Source: an uncultured Spirochaetaceae bacterium (lineage in GTDB: Bacteria > Spirochaetota > Spirochaetia > Sphaerochaetales > Sphaerochaetaceae). Taken from it: DNA of 44,623 nt. The notes beneath the pieces were generated by a model. It was not told the origin of the DNA and searched no databases. It saw only the letters and a program-made list of their open reading frames with translations. The DNA is taken from contig CALXMP010000018.1 of assembly GCA_944389505.1 (NCBI GenBank), positions 1-44,623 of the forward strand, in the 5' to 3' direction. Below are positions 169 to 11,532 of this stretch, piece after piece. Position numbers and translations under genes: made by a program. Each line of letters opens with the position of its first letter. Position 1 is the stretch's first letter.

Positions 169-753
169 TCAATCGGCTGGCGTATATATCAAAAGAACAA
201 ATCCTGTATATCGACCAGGAGAATAATAGTCCTGCCCCTCAGGTGGATTCATAGTCATCTGAATTTTATAACTTCCAGATTCAGTAATATGTACTGTACG
301 CTCATTTGTGCTTAACGCTTCCCCTGAGTCCTGAACAGTTATTGTATTACTTCCAAGTGCCATTCCATTTTCATCCGTACCAGTAATGGTAACATTATAA
401 TTCAATCCAATCTCTCCTCTTTCATGCATAAGCATGTAACCAGATGGCGTTGAAAGATAGTCATATGTATCATTACAATCGAAAATGACTGAGAGATCAT
501 GATTGCCTTCAAAAGTATTAAAATAATAGAAATACAAATCCGAGGCGATAGTCTCTCCTCTTGCGGCAGAAGGGAATGTGATATAAGAATCTCCTGGTGT
601 ATTCTCATCTATACCAAATCCGTACCTGAGAATCCCGTCTTTTTTAAATTCAATTTCAAAGTTTAAACCATCTCCATCTGGAGATATCTCCCTTGAATCC
701 AAAAAGGAAACTGCTACTGAAAGGATTAATAAAATGAATATGAACCTTTTCAT
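169..753 (-). CDS. Secreted pilin-like subunit 10 (last visible gene of chaperone-usher operon)
   Basis: A 194-residue protein with a Sec signal peptide (residues 1 to about 20, KR then a hydrophobic core) and a beta-rich body. It carries two marks shared with its neighbours: an aromatic strand YFYYFN at residues 74-79, and a C-terminal strand beginning PGRYTG near residue 179 followed by alternating hydrophobics. That ending is the pattern expected of chaperone-usher subunits, whose last strand packs against the chaperone. The start overlaps the stop of the upstream gene by one base and has GGAGG seven bases upstream. The role as an exported fibre subunit is inferred from context and motif. 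No individual family is recognised. Confidence 0.7.
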   Translation of the reverse strand: MKRFIFILLILSVAVSFLDSREISPDGDGLNFEIEFKKDGILRYGFGIDENTPGDSYITFPSAARGETIASDLYFYYFNTFEGNHDLSVIFDCNDTYDYLSTPSGYMLMHERGEIGLNYNVTITGTDENGMALGSNTITVQDSGEALSTNERTVHITESGSYKIQMTMNPPEGQDYYSPGRYTGFVLLIYTPAD

Positions 754-1319
754 TATTTGACCTCCAGTTTCATTTTGAGTGTTCCTTTATATGACACATT
801 CTTATCAAATACAGTATCTCCAGGAATACTCAGAATAACCATTCCTTTCTGGTATTCCGGGTTGTTATTTTCAATTACCAATGCACCTTCTATTTCTATT
901 TCTCCATTAGCCTCTCTCAATTCTGCCCCATCTGGTAATTCAGAAGATTTAACATTATATGAAAGTGTATCAGCTGAATTGGTTTCATTTATAACCTTCC
1001 CATCAAGTGTTACTGTCCATTGATATGTACTAGATGGCTCACCCTGAAAGGCCTGTACATAGAAATAAATATTTTTTGTCTCATAATTCTGAGTTATATC
1101 GTTATATGTAAAGTCAAAATTTTTAATATCTGTCACTTCTCCAACTGAAGAAACATTCTGATCTGTAAATCCAAAGAATGCTTCTATATCAGCAAAAAAG
1201 TATACAGGCATAACCTTTACAAAATGATACTTATCAGCATCGCCCTCACTAGGATATTCGATTGAATATAAAGAGAGAGAAGTCATCAATATAAGTAATA
1301 ATGCTATTATCTTTTTCAT
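753..1319 (-). CDS. Secreted pilin-like subunit 9
   Basis: A 188-residue secreted protein with a signal peptide at residues 1 to about 19 (cleavage likely after LYS). The mature part has the shared strand IYFYV (84-88) and a C-terminal strand around SYKGTLKMKLEV, a variant of the G-x-Y-x-G ending in which Y-K-G is kept. AGGAG lies just upstream of the ATG. It is tightly packed between two similar subunit genes, so co-transcription is nearly certain. It is probably a structural subunit assembled through the usher encoded in the same operon. Its divergence from its neighbours suggests subunits with distinct positions rather than recent copies. Confidence 0.68.
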   Translation of the reverse strand: MKKIIALLLILMTSLSLYSIEYPSEGDADKYHFVKVMPVYFFADIEAFFGFTDQNVSSVGEVTDIKNFDFTYNDITQNYETKNIYFYVQAFQGEPSSTYQWTVTLDGKVINETNSADTLSYNVKSSELPDGAELREANGEIEIEGALVIENNNPEYQKGMVILSIPGDTVFDKNVSYKGTLKMKLEVK

Positions 1320-1330
1320 AGTTCTCCTCT

Positions 1331-1918
1331 TTAATCCACTATTTTCAATGTAATAGTTAGTTCCCCTGAATAGCTTTTGTCCCCTGAACTAGTAGCAGCT
1401 GAAGTTGCTTCTACCTTAATTGAAAGAGGAAGACAATTGGTATCTGTACTCATTTCATTAGCAGCATTTTTCGTATGAATCAGCGTCCCTGGATTTTCTA
1501 AAGAAACATAGTCCTCAATACTTATCTCTTGTGAGGCCTCTGAGACACTTACCTGCCATTTAACAGGATTTGAGGAAGTTGTATCATTAATCTCCCCGAA
1601 ATCATTAGACTCTTTTCCAAGATATAGTTCACACCTCTGTGAACTTCTGAATTTCCAATAAACATATCCCAAATCAAATGTATCACTACTTCCTGCCGCT
1701 CCTACATCAAGATTTCTAATGACCGTGGTTGGCAGTTCTGTGGCAGCAGTACTCCACGAATAGATTTCATTCGATGAGAACCCGGCGATATAACTTCCCG
1801 TATCTGCCTTTAGAGTTATAGTAGCACTTGCTGAATTCTCCGACAGACCATTTTCATACTCAACTGAGTACAGTGGCAATGAAAGCAAAAGAAGAAATAT
1901 CAGAACCGGGTGTCTCAT
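1331..1918 (-). CDS. Secreted pilin-like subunit 8
   Basis: A 195-residue secreted protein. The signal peptide covers residues 1-18 (MRHP then a long Leu core, cleavage near LYS). The body shows the family strands AGFSSNEI (45-52) and YVYWKF (85-90), and a C-terminal strand SYSGELTITLKI. These line up with GFSGTEI and VYVYYQ in subunit 7 and support common ancestry. GCAGGTGG precedes the ATG. Expected to be an exported beta-sandwich subunit carried by the PapD-like chaperone. The function of the individual subunit is unknown. Confidence 0.7.
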   Translation of the reverse strand: MRHPVLIFLLLLSLPLYSVEYENGLSENSASATITLKADTGSYIAGFSSNEIYSWSTAATELPTTVIRNLDVGAAGSSDTFDLGYVYWKFRSSQRCELYLGKESNDFGEINDTTSSNPVKWQVSVSEASQEISIEDYVSLENPGTLIHTKNAANEMSTDTNCLPLSIKVEATSAATSSGDKSYSGELTITLKIVD

Positions 1919-1930
1919 AAACCACCTGCC

Positions 1931-2557
1931 TTACTCTGGTATTGTGACGAACATCTTAATTTTTCCACTATAATCGCCTGTCGCTCCAACAGGGATCTTA
2001 TCAATTGTTGTGGAAATAGTAAGAGCAACACTCTCAGCCTTTGCCTCTGCCACATTATCTTCAGTCGGCGTGAAAGCCAGAACAGGAGTAGCCTGCTCAG
2101 CCAAAGTTGCCATGGTTGCAGCGCTATCAATTGAGGTTGCCCCACCTGTAGTACCTTTCGGGGTAAATGAAATATTGAAAGGAATAGTGTGGTCATTTGC
2201 AATAGTGGACATATCTTCTGCTGCAAGAGAAATCTGAATCTTATCTGCAGTCCTTACCTGATAATACACATAAACATCATCAGAAGCATTATTAAACGTA
2301 CTTTCATCTGTTCCTGCTGCAAGAGTTACATTTGCCTTGTCAGAAATTATCCCAGTAGTGTCATTCGTGATTTCTGTGCCAGAAAAACCAACCCTGATAT
2401 AGTTAAGAGCATCTGGATCAATTGTGAGATTGACCTTAAATTCATTTCCTGCAGGTGTTTCCCATGAAGTTTTACTATTCAGATCTTGTGTAATATCTAC
2501 AGCAAATAGCATTGCAGCAGATAATCCGATTACCAAACAAAGCAATAATTTTCTCAT
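1931..2557 (-). CDS. Secreted pilin-like subunit 7
   Basis: A 208-residue secreted protein with a signal peptide at residues 1-19 (cleavage near LFA). It is the clearest representative of the short-subunit family: VGFSGTEI at 56-63, VYVYYQV at 95-101, and a C-terminal DYSGKIKMFVTI strand. An N-terminal stretch of about 25 residues precedes the first family strand and could act as the donor strand of the fibre; this is inferred from known chaperone-usher biology. AGGAGAGG lies upstream of the ATG. Composition is rich in Thr, Ser, Ala and Asp, as in many pilins. It could be a major subunit, but nothing in the sequence proves this. Confidence 0.7.
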   Translation of the reverse strand: MRKLLLCLVIGLSAAMLFAVDITQDLNSKTSWETPAGNEFKVNLTIDPDALNYIRVGFSGTEITNDTTGIISDKANVTLAAGTDESTFNNASDDVYVYYQVRTADKIQISLAAEDMSTIANDHTIPFNISFTPKGTTGGATSIDSAATMATLAEQATPVLAFTPTEDNVAEAKAESVALTISTTIDKIPVGATGDYSGKIKMFVTIPE

Positions 2558-2579: not shown

Positions 2580-3155
2580 TTAATTTACATTGCAACTAAT
2601 CATTATTCCGCCAACATATGAATCTGTTTTCACACGAGTCGGAATATCCTTCTCAACATCAATATCAAACGTCAATTCATAAATATGAATTTCCGGATTT
2701 CCTCCGTTATATCTGAAAGTAGTAACACCGCCACTATGCACAGTTGTACTACTTAAGGTAGACGCATCACTCTCCCCAACACTTACCTCCTTTACAGCAA
2801 CACTATATTGAATATCCTCATAGCCCTCATCCTCAATAGACATAGGAAGAGGCCTAAATGTGAATGTACACCCTGAAGCATCGTATCTCTGCCAGTAGAA
2901 ATAAACCTTTGAAGGTGATTGTTCTATCTCCCGATTCTTATTCAAGAAAAGGCTTACACCAGAGCAAGAACTTGGCTCCTTCCCTGACTCCCAAGAGAAT
3001 CCTGTAGCTGATCCCGTAAAACCAACCTTAGTCTGGTCTTTGACCCCAATATTGAGATTGAAAACCATATTAGCCTGTCCATTCTGATCAAGCACACGAG
3101 CAGGAAGAAAACTTATGAGTAACAATGTGATTAATAAAACTGTCGCTTTTCTCAT
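2580..3155 (-). CDS. Secreted pilin-like subunit 6
   Basis: A 191-residue secreted protein when started at the ATG at 3155, chosen because GAGG lies six bases upstream and the product then begins with a normal signal peptide (MRKATVLLI plus a Leu-rich core). A GTG at 3167 would add four residues and overlap the upstream stop. Shared strands are VGFTG (44-48) and VYFYWQR (84-90). The C-terminal strand begins DSYVGG. It contains Cys at 64 and again near both the middle and the C-terminus, so a disulphide is possible. Probable exported fibre subunit, by family resemblance and operon position. Confidence 0.7.
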   Translation of the reverse strand: MRKATVLLITLLLISFLPARVLDQNGQANMVFNLNIGVKDQTKVGFTGSATGFSWESGKEPSSCSGVSLFLNKNREIEQSPSKVYFYWQRYDASGCTFTFRPLPMSIEDEGYEDIQYSVAVKEVSVGESDASTLSSTTVHSGGVTTFRYNGGNPEIHIYELTFDIDVEKDIPTRVKTDSYVGGIMISCNVN

Positions 3156-3163
3156 TGTCATCC

Positions 3164-3772
3164 TCACTCTGCCTGAACTGAAAGTGTTAGGCTTCCAGAA
3201 TACAATCCAGCAGGCCTGTTCCCTACAGCACCATCGATATGTTCCGTAACGACACTCAATGGAATGATTCCAATTGAAGTTCCAGATACACTTATACTGC
3301 CCTCTGAAGATGAATTTGCAGTATCATATGATGCATCACCTGCAGAGACATAGAATTCGATCGGTTTTACTCCATCCTTGTCGATAGTAAGACCTTTGGC
3401 ATCAACAAAAGCAATTTTATAATCCTTGTCTCCTACAATCCTGTAGAAAACATAGCATCTATCATTTGCATTGGTTGCTTTATCATCATTTTCATTATAT
3501 GAGAGCTCCAGCTGGCATTTGCTTCTTAAACTAGAAGCAAGCCGAACAAGACTGTCAGTACCTAAGACAGGAATAGCATTTTCACTATTAGAGTCCGAAG
3601 CCATAACAAGCTGATCATCACCAATGAATGCAACATCAACAAACTCTATTTGATCGACAAGAAGAGTCACACTAAGGGTATTGCCATCATCAATGATATA
3701 AGGAGATGATGCAGCAACACCAGAAAGCAGTAATATAGATGTAACAATCAACGCAAAGGCCCTTCTGTACAT
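3164..3772 (-). CDS. Secreted pilin-like subunit 5
   Basis: A 202-residue secreted protein with a signal peptide at residues 1 to about 22 (Val/Leu/Ala core ending GVAA-S). It shows VAFIGDD near residue 47 and CYVFYRI at 106-112, the equivalents of the GFSG and YVYYQ strands of other subunits. It ends in a textbook subunit strand, AGLYSGSLTLSV. GGAGAG precedes the ATG, overlapping the end of the preceding gene. Likely a structural or adaptor subunit of the fibre. The exact place in the fibre cannot be read from sequence. Confidence 0.7.
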   Translation of the reverse strand: MYRRAFALIVTSILLLSGVAASSPYIIDDGNTLSVTLLVDQIEFVDVAFIGDDQLVMASDSNSENAIPVLGTDSLVRLASSLRSKCQLELSYNENDDKATNANDRCYVFYRIVGDKDYKIAFVDAKGLTIDKDGVKPIEFYVSAGDASYDTANSSSEGSISVSGTSIGIIPLSVVTEHIDGAVGNRPAGLYSGSLTLSVQAE

Positions 3773-3775
3773 CCG

Positions 3776-4339
3776 TCACTCTCCACTCAGCATCAGAGAA
3801 AGATCTGTCGCATATATTCCAGGCATGAGAGTCATCGGAGACTCCCATGACAGTGTGATATCAGCTACAGGCTCGCCTCTTATAGGACCCGTCGCCTCAA
3901 TAAAGATATCAACGACACTATCATCGATTTTTGTGACCGAAGCAGTACCAAAGCAGTCATCACTTTCATAAATATTTACTTCAATCGGTATGGATACCGT
4001 TTCATTATTGTTTTCTCCCATCCAGTTCAACTCTGGAGAAGAAGAAAGCCTCACCTCGTAATCATTAGAAAGATTTCCATAGTAAAGCAGAGTAAATGTA
4101 ATACTGCTTCTCTCCGAGATTCTTATGTTCTCGGCCATGCTTTTAGTTATAACAGTATATCCTGTCGTTCTGTCGCCTATTGCAATAACAAAATGATCAA
4201 GACGCATAGCTTCATTCGGGAAAATGATCCCGAAATCATCCTCAAACTCAAGACCAAGCTGTATCGTCTCTGTATCGGCAAAAATCAGACTAGAAGGAAT
4301 CAAGATCAATAATATGAATGTCAGAATCTTTCTTATCAT
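3776..4339 (-). CDS. Secreted pilin-like subunit 4
   Basis: A 187-residue secreted protein. The ATG at 4339 is preferred over an upstream TTG at 4354 because a perfect AGGAGG sits six bases before it and the product starts with a standard signal peptide ending near IFA (residue 21). The mature protein is beta-rich and ends PGIYATDLSLML, again the G-x-Y ending. It lacks a clear YVYYQ strand, so it is more distant from subunits 5-10 and closer in feel to subunits 1 and 2. Probably an adaptor or structural subunit of the same fibre (inference). Confidence 0.65.
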   Translation of the reverse strand: MIRKILTFILLILIPSSLIFADTETIQLGLEFEDDFGIIFPNEAMRLDHFVIAIGDRTTGYTVITKSMAENIRISERSSITFTLLYYGNLSNDYEVRLSSSPELNWMGENNNETVSIPIEVNIYESDDCFGTASVTKIDDSVVDIFIEATGPIRGEPVADITLSWESPMTLMPGIYATDLSLMLSGE

Positions 4340-4350
4340 TTCATTCCTCC

Positions 4351-5802
4351 TCAAGGTGTTTCATCCTCAACAAATACATGGACATAGATATAACTGTGGT
4401 ATGTACCCGAGTACATCACGTTGTATTTATTCTCCAGAATAATATCGACAGATCCCTGATACTCCTGCCAAGCTGTCCCCTGACGTCCACTGCCAAGGTG
4501 TGATGTACGGAACATATCATGAGGAATTATCACTTGATCAGAACTATCCAGCTTGGCACGAGTCATAGTTCCATCAAAGCTGACGATATCTCCTGTATCA
4601 TTATCAGTAGTCCTCACCTCATAACTGATACTATTACGGTCATCAAGGATCTCACCTGTTTTCAGATCATTATGGACAAAACGGAATACGCCACCATCTA
4701 TCTCAGGATTTGCACTGGATGAAAGGAATATTTTTGTTTGATATTTTTCAAAGGTTCCATCAGGAGCATTAGATGTGAAAGTATCTACTTCATCAGAAGA
4801 GATTTCACGCCCCTCATCATCTCCCAAAACTTTAATTCCTGTTCCCAATGTCCTCATGAAATCAATAGTCGCAACTTCAACAGGAGTTCCCTGTTCCTCA
4901 TCCAGCTTTATATTGCTTGCCCGTCCTGTCGATATGATTGACAAAGATGAGAAATTGTCGCTCTCGCCATCATTCGAACCCAAACGGGAATCATAGAATC
5001 CTGAAAATGGAATAACGATTGTCTGCGACGGAGCTCCATCGATACCATTTGTAGCAATTGAAATACTGACAGACGCCATGTAATCATCAAGATTTGCAAT
5101 AGGCATTGTCGTTCCATTATCCAATGTTAAAACACCATTCGACACATTGCCTTCTAGCTCAAGAATGATATCAAAGATAACACAATATTTAGCATTATCA
5201 CCATTCTGGAGATTAGGATTATCAGGACTCAGATCAAATGTTACAGATGTGGGACCATTCAGTCTAACCGACTCTCGCTCGCTATCACTCAACCCCCTCC
5301 AGAGTCTTTTGCTTACCTTTTGAAACCATTCGTATTTTTCATAATCACCAATCACAACATAGGAGGTAGAAAGGATTATATTAAATGGTCTAACAAATGC
5401 AGGATTGCTTAATGAAACAAGATCAAATCCCTGCGGACAGTCAACATTTATCGTAACTGAAGCACCATTCTTGATATTATCCTCGCTTATACCCATAACA
5501 CTGGCAACAGCAACCTGATGATCAACTGTGAAATAATTCTTCTTTGACCCTGTATCAGAGGGACCTGAACCATATGTAAAATCTGCTAGATTATCCTCAA
5601 ACAAATATTTCGTAGAAGCAATATTTATACCATTAGAAGATGCCTGAGGAGTAATTGTTGCATACGCAGCACCATATTCTACAAAATATTGAGAATTCCA
5701 ATCACCATCCACATCTTCAGCAAATTTATTCCAATCAACTCCAATAACAGGAGAAATGCTGGATAAAAATAATATTATGAATAACAAATATTTATTTTTC
5801 AT
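4351..5802 (-). CDS. Large secreted subunit 3, candidate tip adhesin
   Basis: A 483-residue secreted protein, more than twice the size of most other subunits. The ATG at 5802 is favoured because GGGAGAG lies just upstream and a signal peptide follows (MKNKYLLFII..., cleavage near VIG). The sequence is beta-rich throughout and closes with SGTYHSYIYVHVF, the same C-terminal pattern as the small subunits. In known chaperone-usher pili, two-domain subunits with a receptor-binding N-terminal domain and a pilin-like C-terminal domain sit at the tip. Size and ending make this the best tip-adhesin candidate here. It is third of ten subunit genes, whereas adhesin genes are often last. No lectin fold is recognisable by eye. 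Confidence 0.6.
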   Translation of the reverse strand: MKNKYLLFIILFLSSISPVIGVDWNKFAEDVDGDWNSQYFVEYGAAYATITPQASSNGINIASTKYLFEDNLADFTYGSGPSDTGSKKNYFTVDHQVAVASVMGISEDNIKNGASVTINVDCPQGFDLVSLSNPAFVRPFNIILSTSYVVIGDYEKYEWFQKVSKRLWRGLSDSERESVRLNGPTSVTFDLSPDNPNLQNGDNAKYCVIFDIILELEGNVSNGVLTLDNGTTMPIANLDDYMASVSISIATNGIDGAPSQTIVIPFSGFYDSRLGSNDGESDNFSSLSIISTGRASNIKLDEEQGTPVEVATIDFMRTLGTGIKVLGDDEGREISSDEVDTFTSNAPDGTFEKYQTKIFLSSSANPEIDGGVFRFVHNDLKTGEILDDRNSISYEVRTTDNDTGDIVSFDGTMTRAKLDSSDQVIIPHDMFRTSHLGSGRQGTAWQEYQGSVDIILENKYNVMYSGTYHSYIYVHVFVEDETP

Positions 5803-5803
5803 A

Positions 5804-6409
5804 TCACTCTCCCGTCTCAATCATTATTTCGACCGATGCTTTATACTCACCAATCGGCGCATCATCTAATTCTTTAGTAGATTCAAGGAATTTAAAGAAA
5901 ATCATTCCATCTACACTGCCTATGAATGTCAAAGCCTCAAATTCATTCTTAAAAGAGAAAACAGGATCAAGCTCATCGATTGAAGATTCCTTATAATCAC
6001 TACTCTTTACAGAGAAGTTTTTCTTCGAATCGATAGAAGGTTCTCCTCCGGGAGCAATGGTTTCAAGTTCATACTGGAATGTCAATTCATAATCCAATGT
6101 ATAGGAATTATTGCCGACAGCATATAAAGGCTGAGCATTAACCATAATATTGAAATGATTGTTTGCAAGAAGACTCCAGTTGGCTATACCTCTCCCTGAT
6201 GAATCAGGCTGAACCGAATCATCTTTTATATTGAATGGCATGCCACCCATATAACCCTGCCCCTGAGCCTTGAGAATCTCAACATCGACAGAGCATACAT
6301 CCCCATAGCCCCCCTGAAGAGGAATTGATGCATTGGTATCCGGTCTATATGCATTAATAGATACAGGAATCATTATAAGTAAAAAGAATGTAAGTAGATT
6401 TTTCCTCAT
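5804..6409 (-). CDS. Secreted pilin-like subunit 2
   Basis: A 201-residue secreted protein with a signal peptide at residues 1-20 (MRKNLLTFFLL..., cleavage near NA). It is beta-rich and ends IGEYKASVEIMIE, a member of the G-x-Y C-terminal strand group. GGGAGG lies upstream of the ATG. It sits between the large candidate adhesin and the first subunit after the usher, a position where adaptor subunits would be expected. The GFSG and YVYYQ strands of subunits 5-10 are not evident. Confidence 0.65.
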   Translation of the reverse strand: MRKNLLTFFLLIMIPVSINAYRPDTNASIPLQGGYGDVCSVDVEILKAQGQGYMGGMPFNIKDDSVQPDSSGRGIANWSLLANNHFNIMVNAQPLYAVGNNSYTLDYELTFQYELETIAPGGEPSIDSKKNFSVKSSDYKESSIDELDPVFSFKNEFEALTFIGSVDGMIFFKFLESTKELDDAPIGEYKASVEIMIETGE

Positions 6410-6423
6410 ATCATTCCTCCCTA

Positions 6424-7212
6424 TTAATCTGTAGTTTTCAAAGTCAACGTCACAGTTGATGTATATGTACCTGCGCTTGCATCTTCATATGCTTTACGGT
6501 CAAAAACTAAAGAAACTGCACCTCTTATATACCAAGGCTGAAAATTAGAAGTACTTGTATATGAATGACTCCTTATACCTTCACCTGTACATTTTGAATA
6601 TTCAATGCTCCAGTTATGTAATGCAATGCCACTTCCGGATAAAACATGTCCACTAGAGACCGAATTCGAGAATCCAAGAAATATATCAGTCGTTTCATTT
6701 TCCCAGACAAGATAATGTTTATTTTCACATTCTCCAATTTTGTATGAAGATGATCCATCCTCAAAAGAGGCAGTTATATTCTGAATCCTAAACTTCGAAG
6801 CAATAGTAGTATCATCTGTAGTATTCGTGAACGGTTCCATACTAACCGAAACAGAATAGCTCAATTTATTGTCACGGGTTACGTCAGTAACAGAATCAAG
6901 ATATTCTTCTCCTCTGATAAGATAGGAGAACACAATCTTCTCATTATGATTCGGATATTGGCCATCAATATTGTTAATATCATCAACAAGCATATCCTCA
7001 ATGCTTGGAAGAACTATTTTATTGGTTGAGTAGTCCAGGATACCTCCTGTTACAGCATCTCCGATCTCAATATAGACACTTCCTTCAGGAGCACTAGAAT
7101 CTAGGCCTATGTTATATGCAGAAATTTCAAAGCTTGCCGTATCCTGTGCAGAATGAAGTGTTGATGAGAGAAGGAGGATGAAGATAAGTGCGATATGTTT
7201 CATTCTTCTCAT
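6424..7212 (-). CDS. Secreted pilin-like subunit 1 (directly after usher)
   Basis: A 262-residue secreted protein whose ATG overlaps the usher stop codon (ATGA) with GGAGG four bases upstream, so it is translationally coupled to the usher. The signal peptide spans residues 1 to about 22 (MRRMKHIALIFILLL..., cleavage near HSA). The C-terminus, AGTYTSTVTLTLK, closely resembles the ending of the spore coat U/archaic pilin domain. It is longer than most of the other small subunits and has two Cys in the middle (ECENKHY region and SKCTG region). Likely a fibre subunit, perhaps a base or adaptor. The specific role is unknown. Confidence 0.68.
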   Translation of the reverse strand: MRRMKHIALIFILLLSSTLHSAQDTASFEISAYNIGLDSSAPEGSVYIEIGDAVTGGILDYSTNKIVLPSIEDMLVDDINNIDGQYPNHNEKIVFSYLIRGEEYLDSVTDVTRDNKLSYSVSVSMEPFTNTTDDTTIASKFRIQNITASFEDGSSSYKIGECENKHYLVWENETTDIFLGFSNSVSSGHVLSGSGIALHNWSIEYSKCTGEGIRSHSYTSTSNFQPWYIRGAVSLVFDRKAYEDASAGTYTSTVTLTLKTTD

Positions 7213-10200
7213 ACAGCCTCCTCAAATGATGGGTAAAGCATTGTCCAGAACTCATTGCTGGTCATGGCTTTTCCCTGATTGAATATGTAAGCCATGATAT
7301 AAGGCTCAGGGACCTGGGCGTTATCAAACTCAGCCATTGAATCAAAGACCTCTATCTGACCGTCCTCTCCGATATTTCCAACAGTGAAGATATAGAGAAT
7401 CCACCCGTCCTCGCTCATCACATCAAATGCGTATGTACCAGCTGCAAGATCTGTTATAGTGAATCTTCCATCACTGTCAGCAAATAGGTAGTTATCAAGC
7501 GTATTGAGAATTACATTCCCATTCTCAATCGATACAGCATAGAGCGGTGATGCTCCATTTATCCACATCGAATCATCTGGAAGTACAACCAATCCAGATG
7601 CGGAGTATCTGTTGTCTGCTGAGATTCTGATAGCGTATCCTTTTCTATTTGAATACGGGAGATTGTACTCAAATGAAGAGCCTCCACTGAATGATTCCGG
7701 ATCAACACTGTAGAGAGCAAAGCTGGAATCAGATCTGGAAGAAAGTCCTGTATATATACCCATATCAAGGAATGTTCCAATCTCACGAGTAGCAGAGCTT
7801 CCGGAAGAACCTACTGTCAGCTGATTTCCTTTCAGCGCTCCGGACTGTCCTATAATGACGAAGTTCGACGGGATATACGACTGGAATGCAAGGAGACCGT
7901 CTGCAAAGATTGAGGCTGTCGACAGAGACAGCGTTCCATCAAGACGGTGGAACAGCTCTGAAGCATCAAGATCAACACCGACATTGAAGATATTTCCAGA
8001 GTAGTCGTAATCGAAGCCAAATCCATATGTATCTGGTTTTACTACCTCTGCAAGATTTGCAGAAGCATTGATTGAATGCTTGCCGAATCTTGCTGTCGTA
8101 TTTGCCGTAATGTTCTTTCCTGTTGTCTCGATAGTCACATTGCCATTTCCGAAATAGAATGTCATAGCGACCCTGCCTGTGACATTCGCAGATGGAATAT
8201 CAAAGTTCTCGGCATTAATGTTGAATGATGCAGAGAGGTATACATTGCGATTGAACGAGAATGAGAGTGAACCACCAAGATTCCACTGATATTCCGAAAG
8301 ATTGTCAGAATCAATTGTACCGGAATAATTAAGGCTGTATCCCATGATTCCTATTCGTCCTGAGATTCCTGTTGACAGAAGGAACCTATGCCTGTTAGTT
8401 ACATTCACCTCTTCCGGAGAAGAGTATGCAAGAGCTAAATTGAATGAGCTGAGACCAGTAAAACCGGTACTTACCTGATGACCGATTCTTGCATAGAAAC
8501 CAGGCATCTTAAGCGTTCCATCATTCTTTGCACGCTCGGTGACATTGAAGTTGTACCTTGTTGTTCCGAGTATGTTGGCATGAGTCATCTCGGAAGCAAA
8601 CTTCATAACAGGACGGAATGCAGCCTGATTTGTCGGGCTATTCTGCAGCGCAAGTGTTGCGTCGAGTGTCAGATTATCCGTAAGACCAGTTTCAAGATAA
8701 CCACTGAGAGTAACATTCCTGAAATCATAAATGACGGCCTTGTTGATAAGAGGAAGCTTGACTTCGCCATTCACTGTAGAAGCACTCTTCTCATCCTCAT
8801 AACGACCAATGGAGACAGAGGCACCATAGTTGACCTCTCCTTTTGAAAGGAGAGAGTTCGAATAGACGATATCAACATCCTTCTCGTAATACGGAGTACC
8901 ATCAAGGGGTGTCACTCTGATCTTTATATGATTGATACCGGAATATAGCGTGAAGTCTTCAAGCCTGTACATACCTGGCTGGAGCGTATCACGGTAGATC
9001 TCTTTCCCATCATTAAAGACCTGAACCTCAGATTCCTTATCAATGACAAGTACCTCATGGATAGCATTCTTCTTTTCCACAATATCATCTGAATAAATGG
9101 GATCTCTGTCGAATCTTATACCTACAGTCGTGCCCCTAGGAGAAAGAAGATCTGTCGAAATATTTCCCCACTGAAGCCTGATTCCAGGCTCAGTGAAATC
9201 AGTATAGAACTTGTAAGTCAGCAAATTGAAATCAAACCATCTAGTAGAGAAATCAAATCCATAATCAAGATCAAGGTAAACATCATACAATCGGGCCTGG
9301 TTGTATGCCCTGAATGAGAACCTCAGAGAATCAACAAAGCTTGTCCTCTCATTTAGAGAGAAACGCGATGTGAGAGTATATCTTGATCCAAGCGTGAAGA
9401 CAGCTGGCTCAAGAATCGTACCACCTGTCATCGGTCGTCTTGCAACTCTCCTGACATTTCCCTTAAGGCTTAAGGTCTGGATAGGCATATCACTTGCTTC
9501 AAAGAAAAGATCGATAAGATATCCTTCACTATCGAAATCAGACCTGACACCAAGTTCGGAAAGACGTGTCAGAGATATATATTCAGTATCATCAACGAAT
9601 ATGCGATTGAAAGCATCATCTGTCAGATTCTGTTCCACCATGGTCTTCAGCTGTGACATGAGAAGTGAAGCTTCCTGATTCTCCATATATGCTTCAATCT
9701 CCCCACAGTATTCACCATTTGCATATAGATCGAAATAGTAAATCCCATCGTCAAACTCAAGGCCCTCTCCTGCTATATAGAAATCAGCCCAGAAATCATC
9801 CTCAAGGAAATCAGGCATAACATATACATCACCAGATTCTTCTGAGACTGTTGAATCTTCCTCTACTGGAATTGCTTCAACTTCTTCTGTATTTTCAGAT
9901 ATAATAATATCTTCCTCTTCTGATTCCACAACCTCTTCAGCATCAGTAGTAGGTGCTACTTCCTCGATTGATTCCTCTTCAGTTGTTTCAGCTATAGCAG
10001 ATTCATCTATGTCAGAAGGTTCATCAATAACCTCTTCTATATCTGGCTCTTCATCTTCAACAGGCTCCAAAGATTCCAGTGCGATCTCTTCAGGAACAGA
10101 ATACGGCCCTGCTTCAGCCGACTCCTCCGCAAATACTTCCTCAATCTCTTCTATAACTGGTTTTCCATCTTTTTCAGACGCTGGAGACTCCACTATTGTC

Positions 10201-10691
10201 GGAATAGAATCCTGCTCTGCTTCAAGCTCCTCTGCCTCATCCTCCGTGCTTTCCTGGTTGTCATCTTCCTCCTGCTTCTCTGTTATCACTGCAGGAAGAT
10301 CATCTGGAGATGGAGACTGATTGCCATTCATGGTATCAATGGGTGATTCAGATTCTTCGAAGTATGCAGGAGGATCTGCCTCGGTTTCCACTGCAGACGG
10401 GACAGATTCCGGAAGATTGGAGAACAGGTATGAGACAAGGTATGCCCCCGCAGTGGACAGAACGATGACAGAGAGGACCGTCATCACCAATGCCATCTCT
10501 GCAGCAGTTTTCCCAAGATAAGATGAGAGAAGGAAAACCGCTGCGGACATGGCATCAAGAAGCAGGACAGCTATAGCTGCTGCCGATATGACGCCGTCTG
10601 AAAATAAATATGTGGTAAAAGCGCCTATAGCAATGACCGCATTGGCTGATAAACCTCTGCGGATTGCCTTAAGCCAATCCAGCCTATTCAT
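7209..10691 (-). CDS. Outer-membrane usher with N-terminal membrane anchor and acidic linker
   Basis: An 1160-residue protein with four parts. Residues 1-92 hold three predicted membrane helices (about 15-30, 33-58, 64-90). Residues 93-290 are a low-complexity linker very rich in Glu, Asp, Pro and Ser. Residues 300-410 resemble an usher N-terminal domain (GIYYFDLYANGEYCGEI). Residues 420 to about 1050 are amphipathic strands of a large beta barrel with usher-like phrases. A C-terminal beta domain contains DGRFTITDLAAGTYAFDV. Ushers are normally 800-900 residues with a cleavable signal peptide, so the first 290 residues are extra. The start is firm: AAGGGGAAT precedes the ATG. An alternative reading is that helix 3 is cleaved as an internal signal. 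Its role is secretion and assembly of the ten downstream subunits. The usher call is by motif and context. Confidence 0.8.
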   Translation of the reverse strand: MNRLDWLKAIRRGLSANAVIAIGAFTTYLFSDGVISAAAIAVLLLDAMSAAVFLLSSYLGKTAAEMALVMTVLSVIVLSTAGAYLVSYLFSNLPESVPSAVETEADPPAYFEESESPIDTMNGNQSPSPDDLPAVITEKQEEDDNQESTEDEAEELEAEQDSIPTIVESPASEKDGKPVIEEIEEVFAEESAEAGPYSVPEEIALESLEPVEDEEPDIEEVIDEPSDIDESAIAETTEEESIEEVAPTTDAEEVVESEEEDIIISENTEEVEAIPVEEDSTVSEESGDVYVMPDFLEDDFWADFYIAGEGLEFDDGIYYFDLYANGEYCGEIEAYMENQEASLLMSQLKTMVEQNLTDDAFNRIFVDDTEYISLTRLSELGVRSDFDSEGYLIDLFFEASDMPIQTLSLKGNVRRVARRPMTGGTILEPAVFTLGSRYTLTSRFSLNERTSFVDSLRFSFRAYNQARLYDVYLDLDYGFDFSTRWFDFNLLTYKFYTDFTEPGIRLQWGNISTDLLSPRGTTVGIRFDRDPIYSDDIVEKKNAIHEVLVIDKESEVQVFNDGKEIYRDTLQPGMYRLEDFTLYSGINHIKIRVTPLDGTPYYEKDVDIVYSNSLLSKGEVNYGASVSIGRYEDEKSASTVNGEVKLPLINKAVIYDFRNVTLSGYLETGLTDNLTLDATLALQNSPTNQAAFRPVMKFASEMTHANILGTTRYNFNVTERAKNDGTLKMPGFYARIGHQVSTGFTGLSSFNLALAYSSPEEVNVTNRHRFLLSTGISGRIGIMGYSLNYSGTIDSDNLSEYQWNLGGSLSFSFNRNVYLSASFNINAENFDIPSANVTGRVAMTFYFGNGNVTIETTGKNITANTTARFGKHSINASANLAEVVKPDTYGFGFDYDYSGNIFNVGVDLDASELFHRLDGTLSLSTASIFADGLLAFQSYIPSNFVIIGQSGALKGNQLTVGSSGSSATREIGTFLDMGIYTGLSSRSDSSFALYSVDPESFSGGSSFEYNLPYSNRKGYAIRISADNRYSASGLVVLPDDSMWINGASPLYAVSIENGNVILNTLDNYLFADSDGRFTITDLAAGTYAFDVMSEDGWILYIFTVGNIGEDGQIEVFDSMAEFDNAQVPEPYIMAYIFNQGKAMTSNEFWTMLYPSFEEAV

Positions 10692-10724: not shown

Positions 10725-11462
10725 TTAATAGCTGAAATCGTATGTGAGCGAGACGGTGTAAGCGGTTGAGTCAGCTAATTCCTCAGGAACATCGATTATT
10801 GTCCTGAGACGCGAATCGGTAAGGAGATTCTGTCCCGATACAGGGGCAAGCTCCTCCTCTGTCAATGTATAGTTTCCGCCACTGTTGCCAGAGACGGTAA
10901 TTGACACACTATTGAGCATCTGATGCACAGAGCCTGTATTCTCGAGAACGATCTCAAGTTTTCCCTTATCGTTGAGTGAAGCCGTTCCTGTGACGCTCTC
11001 GACAACACGCGATGGCTTTACATAAGCGCTTGTCGAATAGACGAAGAGGAATGAGATCATCTGCCCTGCTTCCTGCTCTGACGCTCCGGAAGGCATCGGG
11101 ATCTGCTCTGAGATGATGCGGAATGAAAGCTCCTTTGTAACAGTTGATGGTCCACGATACTGGACGCGCACAAGCTGTGTCGAGTCAGGTCTTATGATCA
11201 TCTTGTTCGGCTGGATGGAGAAATACTGAGGGACATCCTCGTTGTATTCATTGCCATCAATGTCGATGCTGCGCTTTACAGCCCTGACCTCGATTGCTAT
11301 CGGGGAATCGGAGTCGTTTACGATCGTATAGACCTTAGCGCTTCCTGCCCCTGTGGGATCATATGTCACATTCAGCGGCGACAGCTGATAAGCAGCTGCT
11401 CCGAAAAGTGTGACAGCAAGGAAAAGCAATAACAGTATTGCCCTTCGTACATTTGTGATCAT
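10725..11462 (-). CDS. PapD-like periplasmic pilus chaperone
   Basis: A 245-residue protein with a signal peptide (NVRR then a Leu-rich core, cleavage after GAAA near residue 24) and two Ig-like domains. Family marks are YFSIQPNKMIIRPDSTQ (80-96), LVRVQYRG, KELSFRI (110-116) and SEQIPMP, the conserved core of domain 1 of PapD-type chaperones. It should hold unfolded subunits in the periplasm and deliver them to the adjacent usher. The ATG at 11462 (or 11465) is chosen because AAAGGGGG lies just upstream. An ATG at 11516 would add 18 residues before the signal peptide and has no SD. The N-terminal conserved Arg of classical chaperones is not evident. It is first in the operon, downstream of the poly-G tract. 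Confidence 0.82.
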   Translation of the reverse strand: MITNVRRAILLLLFLAVTLFGAAAYQLSPLNVTYDPTGAGSAKVYTIVNDSDSPIAIEVRAVKRSIDIDGNEYNEDVPQYFSIQPNKMIIRPDSTQLVRVQYRGPSTVTKELSFRIISEQIPMPSGASEQEAGQMISFLFVYSTSAYVKPSRVVESVTGTASLNDKGKLEIVLENTGSVHQMLNSVSITVSGNSGGNYTLTEEELAPVSGQNLLTDSRLRTIIDVPEELADSTAYTVSLTYDFSY

Positions 11463-11532
11463 CATGCCCCCTTTGCTATGCCCTATCAGGCATATCTCTA
11501 TCGCATGATGAAACATGGGGTTTCGTAGCTCA

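Follow-up and report, generated by a model that had tools for sequence, protein, structure and literature searches.

Does the usher of this locus ever leave the inner membrane? As a rule, signal peptidase releases barrel proteins into the periplasm before BAM folds them. The window, by which we mean the whole stretch of 44,623 nucleotides analysed here, comes from an uncultured Spirochaetaceae bacterium and carries an open reading frame (7209-10691, minus strand) for a 1160-residue usher of the chaperone-usher pathway. Its layout is not the classical one, in which a single short signal peptide is followed by the N-terminal domain (NTD); three helices and a linker of 210 residues stand there instead. 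Our best reading, with a probability of about 0.65, is that the usher remains anchored in the inner membrane, as a covalent tether between it and the outer membrane. If this is true, a single chain with a helical anchor in one membrane and a barrel in the other challenges the rule of release by signal peptidase. It also raises the question of how load on surface fibres is dealt with in diderm cells that have little wall support.

The usher frame is free of stops throughout, and its ATG at 10691 has AAGGGG, a good Shine-Dalgarno sequence, a short way before it, just as the original prediction had claimed. A wrong start or a mis-joined reading frame is ruled out by the open frame, the Shine-Dalgarno sequence and the constraint on the anchor described below.

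An AlphaFold2 model of the usher, built with 23 family sequences as input, consists of three helices (residues 5-30, 34-59 and 63-91), a stretch with pLDDT below 50 (88-311) and a confident beta-rich body that runs to the C-terminus. Searched with Foldseek, this model finds FimD/PapC entries in all of places 1 to 18 (best E 2.2e-29). VIA-align scores it against FimD/PapC with Z between 14.5 and 18.7, the best being 18.7 across 611 residues, and the alignment with 3rfz takes in residues 311-1133, including the NTD and the C-terminal domains. The model therefore holds a complete usher fold: a beta-barrel with plug, a periplasmic NTD and C-terminal domains. Sequence searches are far less telling. 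The match to PF00577 is weak (residues 553-637, 16.3 bits, under the cut-off), and PF00577 has no match in the genome at E 0.001, a result that says no more than that this family model lacks sensitivity here. A PDB profile search with the usher core has no match at E 1. Hence, the fold match carries the usher identity. It also bears out that an usher-like NTD follows the linker, beginning near residue 311. The parts of the usher body are:

9768-9794, minus strand: conserved junction FWADFYIAG, usher residues 300-308 (F304 and G308 invariant in A1)
9480-9761, minus strand: periplasmic N-terminal domain, usher residues 311-404 (aligned with FimD 26 onward in 3rfz)
7902-9404, minus strand: beta-barrel with plug, usher residues 430-930 (AlphaFold2 strands, VIA-align, weak PF00577 match)
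7212-7901, minus strand: C-terminal domains, usher residues 931-1160 (alignment with FimD reaches residue 834)

The FWADFYIAG junction is probably the equivalent of the usher N-terminal tail described for PapC (PMC8410936). The barrel itself very probably sits in the outer membrane.

The neighbouring genes fit an usher as well. All lie on the same strand:

10725-11516, minus strand: PapD-type periplasmic chaperone with an ordinary signal peptide (PF00345, E 3.8e-6, above the cut-off)
6424-7212, minus strand: pilin-like acidic subunit with a signal peptide (open reading frame, charge, GxY C-terminal end)
5804-6409, minus strand: pilin-like open reading frame with a signal peptide and acidic pI
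4351-5820, minus strand: pilin-like open reading frame, signal peptide, acidic pI
3776-4354, minus strand: pilin-like open reading frame, signal peptide, acidic pI
3164-3772, minus strand: pilin-like open reading frame, signal peptide, acidic pI
2580-3167, minus strand: pilin-like open reading frame, signal peptide, acidic pI
1931-2557, minus strand: pilin-like open reading frame, signal peptide, acidic pI
1331-1918, minus strand: pilin-like open reading frame, signal peptide, acidic pI
753-1319, minus strand: pilin-like open reading frame, signal peptide, acidic pI
169-753, minus strand: pilin-like open reading frame, signal peptide, acidic pI

The chaperone gene (product net charge -11) lies directly upstream of the usher, and the start of the first pilin-like frame downstream overlaps the usher stop. 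The nine frames between 169 and 6409 have pI values of 4.1-4.7 and C-termini that are mostly GxY...G, with the tyrosine invariant in A3. In all, ten acidic, signal-peptide-bearing, pilin-like frames follow the usher, most of them ending in a GxY strand. Usher fold, upstream PapD-type chaperone and downstream pilin-like frames together identify a chaperone-usher locus whose usher is unusual. Like FimD/PapC, the system combines a 24-strand barrel fold with plug, NTD and C-terminal domains, an adjacent PapD-type chaperone and downstream pilin-like genes. Unlike FimD/PapC, the usher starts with three anchor helices and a linker of 210 residues instead of a signal peptide; identity to FimD/PapC is about 11%, and the protein falls under the Pfam and NCBIfam thresholds.

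The unusual part is the N-terminus:

10419-10691, minus strand: inner-membrane anchor of three helices, usher residues 1-91 (AlphaFold2, hydropathy, K/R on the cytoplasmic side)
9789-10418, minus strand: disordered acidic linker, usher residues 92-301 (pLDDT below 50 at 88-311, composition)

The three hydrophobic helices first seen within residues 1-92 are recovered by both AlphaFold2 and hydropathy, the latter with peaks at 17-35 (weak, 1.34), 37-55 and 68-86. The stretch behind them is dominated by Glu, Asp, Pro and Ser, as had been noticed: the 208 residues from 93 to 300 hold 78 D/E, 19 P and 32 S/T but just 3 K/R, and the linker of about 210 residues has a net charge of -73. No second hydrophobic segment that could direct export follows between linker and usher fold, so the helices are the sole export signal. 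The anchor has no Pfam or PHROG match above the cut-off. Together with the variable helix number in relatives, this speaks against an enzyme or a known domain, and the segment looks like a plain anchor.

Is this fusion a peculiarity of one genome, absent from close relatives? It is not. Among the other genomes of the genus, which we searched first, 24 of 35 have a related usher, and all 24 ushers carry the helices and the acidic linker. In a profile search with the usher core across the class, 57 of 297 genomes have an usher. An N-terminal membrane anchor with a linker of 104-431 residues is present in 50 out of 50 ushers examined from Sphaerochaetaceae (with the family assigned by inference), which rules out that the architecture arose by chance. 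These ushers, with anchor plus linker, are about 1100 amino acids long. In other spirochaete families ushers have about 800-950 amino acids and mostly ordinary signal peptides, with a few uncertain N-termini. The anchor also occurs in a one-helix form, for example at locus L030 of a Sphaerochaeta species. AlphaFold2 gives a one-helix relative of the Sphaerochaeta type a helix at 2-31, disorder at 32-179 and then an usher fold that matches that of the window. Two Sphaerochaeta ushers, L030 (2080-2160) and L092 (G312), are broken across two reading frames, which may be an assembly error or a broken gene. The sister-genus genome G148 holds two ushers (L073 and L096), one with three helices and close to the genus of the window, the other with a single helix. 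This suggests lateral transfer.

The number of helices varies. Counted by plain hydropathy (19 residues, peak 1.3) and without the lone weak peaks that occur inside linkers, anchors have 1, 3, 5 or 7 helices. The sole exception is L009 with two, which is without a clear ribosome site. Mapped on a maximum-likelihood tree built from 49 usher cores, helix number changed at least eight times and, L009 aside, stayed odd throughout. The counts vary with the threshold: a charge filter moves six further ushers to even numbers, and among the helices it discards are some second helices containing two acidic residues. An odd-numbered anchor that enters with its N-terminus inside brings the linker out on the periplasmic side, which the usher has to reach. 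The distribution of K and R agrees for 45 of the 50 ushers, in which these residues are found mostly across the membrane from the linker. A home-made dynamic programme for positive-inside topology predicts an outside linker for no more than 18-41 of the 50 as its parameters are varied; because of this sensitivity we do not rely on it. The anchors of L005 and L070 consist of three helices, an acidic stretch and then a further two helices, followed by the main linker; this arrangement looks like a partial duplication that kept the number odd.

Whether the helices remain attached after export is a separate question. They could be a mere elaborate export signal. Once translocation is over, the last helix or the linker would then be cleaved, leaving an ordinary free outer-membrane protein as the mature usher. 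In favour of this, the last helix is the only export signal. To judge this we scored the last usher helices against 169 distinct signal peptides from the same loci. In these local signal peptides the uncharged run to the cleavage site measures 15.4 ± 2.8 residues, with a maximum of 20, and A or S stands at -1 in 93%. The uncharged runs of the last usher helices measure 20-30 residues (43 in one; 29 in helix 3 of the window) and in nearly all cases exceed those of all 169 signal peptides. No consistent signal-peptidase site is found. In the window the end of helix 3 has no site resembling those of the local signal peptides, and the internal site AGA|YL of this helix scores 8.9, at the low edge of the local signal peptides (5th percentile 8.5), so that the cut in helix 3 at which the original prediction would fail does not stand out. 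Higher-scoring internal sites exist in some relatives, which makes the cleavage test indirect; LFS ends or LSA/LLA sites fall within the local range in L013, L014, L015 and L021-L024.

Selection on the two parts differs. We compared codons in eight pairs of relatives and took anchor dN/dS from pairs with more than five synonymous changes. It amounts to 0.03-0.27, and no pair has an indel in the anchor. The usher core gives 0.05-0.10, the linker 0.13-0.67 with indels. The anchor is coding and under purifying selection and the linker drifts, a pattern that agrees with anchor retention. A linker that evolves so fast could nevertheless hold a protease site, and a later cut there would release the usher. 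Against release stand the constraint on the anchor and the consideration that a gain of three to seven helices is pointless for a signal. In addition, BamA, the barrel that we checked, has ordinary signal peptides in the genus of the window, so that the anchor is not general to the barrels of the genus. Taken together, we consider a mere export signal unlikely and retention of the anchor in the inner membrane, judged from sequence, likely. In two species with seven-helix ushers (L125/G001 and G014:C13:429573-430391) the BamA open frames have 1270 and 1224 amino acids, compared to about 850 elsewhere in the genus.

For a tethered usher we propose the following sequence of events. A permanent inner-membrane anchor would take the place of the usher signal peptide. 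Its helices would insert through Sec with the N-terminus inside, and the last of them would direct the export of linker and usher to the periplasm. The barrel would then be folded by BAM in the outer membrane and the anchor would not leave the inner one, and with the two ends so placed one chain would span the envelope. Pilus assembly would proceed as in FimD/PapC: the NTD would bind chaperone-subunit complexes, and these would polymerise through donor-strand exchange with no external energy.

What the linker contributes has several possible answers. One is that it mainly acts as a recruitment antenna, whose VPSxPxF-type motifs dock chaperone-subunit complexes near the Sec exit and hand them to the NTD. 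Indeed VPxxPxF (VPSxPx[FM]) occurs 78 times in 36 of the 50 linkers (L004-L096), compared to 7.2 times expected from shuffled sequences, and often in repeats, with a period of 14 residues in L021-L023 from three species. There is a precedent, since the N-terminal tail of the FimD/PapC usher binds the chaperone through aromatic residues (PMC8410936). However, the motif is absent from the linker of the window and from 13 others, and an acidic linker and an acidic chaperone repel each other. Recruitment as the main function seems unlikely to us. As a second role compatible with tethering, the tether might keep the site of assembly close to the inner membrane and the motifs might serve as docking sites, which for the motifs is possible though doubtful.

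It had also been suggested that the acidic linker guides basic chaperone-subunit complexes electrostatically. The linker is strongly acidic, but the cargo is not basic. Chaperones have net charges of -11 to -20, and not one of the 174 signal-peptide-bearing locus proteins is positively charged; all are acidic. The linkers of one-helix relatives are also far less acidic (net -6 to -41). These charges contradict the suggestion, to which we give hardly any credence.

A further suggestion was that the usher couples to an inner-membrane partner. In its most concrete form the anchor would transduce force in the manner of TonB/TolA, linking the usher to a proton motor of the inner membrane. Like TonB/TolA, the usher has an N-terminal helix and a long Pro-rich or disordered periplasmic linker that reaches the outer membrane (PMC12204202), a likeness that is closest in one-helix ushers, and genomes of Sphaerochaeta and some sister genera have one MotA/ExbB-family gene. 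Unlike in TonB/TolA, the barrel itself forms the C-terminal part of the usher. None of the 50 anchors has the SHLS motor-binding motif, none of 18 genomes of the genus, including that of the window, has a MotA/TolQ/ExbB gene, and ushers work without external energy (PMC8410936). Force transduction is thus very improbable. Of the original idea, tethering by a linker that spans the periplasm is supported by family-wide occurrence, odd helix numbers in all but one case, K/R bias, constraint and the long last helix; coupling to a motor of the TolQ/ExbB type is not supported in this genus.

Why should a tether exist in this family? OmpA/Pal-domain proteins occur in 1 of 101 family genomes. Outside the family, genomes with ordinary ushers have them in 21 of 21 cases, with 4-9 each. 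L,D-transpeptidase (YkuD) domains are found in 2 of the 101 family genomes and in none of the genus of the window. A PBP transpeptidase domain is absent from all 16 genomes of this genus searched for it; usher-carrying relatives of the family have one and other families mostly 3-6. A divergent FtsW is still present in the genus, as are MurD-like proteins, so some precursor chemistry persists. For Sphaerochaeta and Bullifex, PBPs, RodA and MreC are reported missing and cells are spherical (PMC7738495).

A pilus that is pulled from outside needs a mechanical ground, and in this lineage the inner membrane would be the obvious one left. Fully extended, the linkers have a median length of 59 nm, so their reach could be tens of nanometres. 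The tether might then ground the usher, and hence the pilus load, on the inner membrane where OmpA/Pal wall links are absent and there is little or no cross-linked wall; we see the odds for this as slightly short of even. Still more tentative is the general form of the idea, that a family without wall links and most cross-linking evolved inner-membrane-tethered outer-membrane barrels, grounding its pili via a disordered tether. The correlation between missing wall links and anchored ushers amounts to a single evolutionary event, which is no proof of function.

The nearest counterpart in function is GspB/OutB of type 2 secretion, in which an N-terminal inner-membrane segment and a periplasmic linker anchor an outer-membrane pore (PMC12274547). 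GspB/OutB, unlike the usher, is a separate scaffold that binds the secretin and is attached to peptidoglycan. Here anchor and pore are in one chain, in a lineage with few wall links. The parts are known and their fusion is a new usher variant; we found no description of an anchored usher in the literature searched, which includes few subscription journals. Since the system misses the standard family models, pili of the family are probably under-annotated. Cultured Sphaerochaeta carry the one-helix form, which makes experiments possible.

Anchor and usher body also part ways in evolution. Chaperone and anchor share 93-100% DNA identity with those of the nearest relative, G019 (anchor 99%). At about 10250, inside the linker, identity falls from 97-100% to about 50% for the rest of the usher:

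10240-10300, minus strand: junction of recombination within the linker codons, seen against G019 (L031) and placed by the drop in DNA identity

This comparison (G000 with G019) indicates that recombination exchanged the usher body and the pilins while chaperone and anchor were kept. Because the drop lies inside the linker, anchor and usher body recombine as modules, with the linker as their joint.
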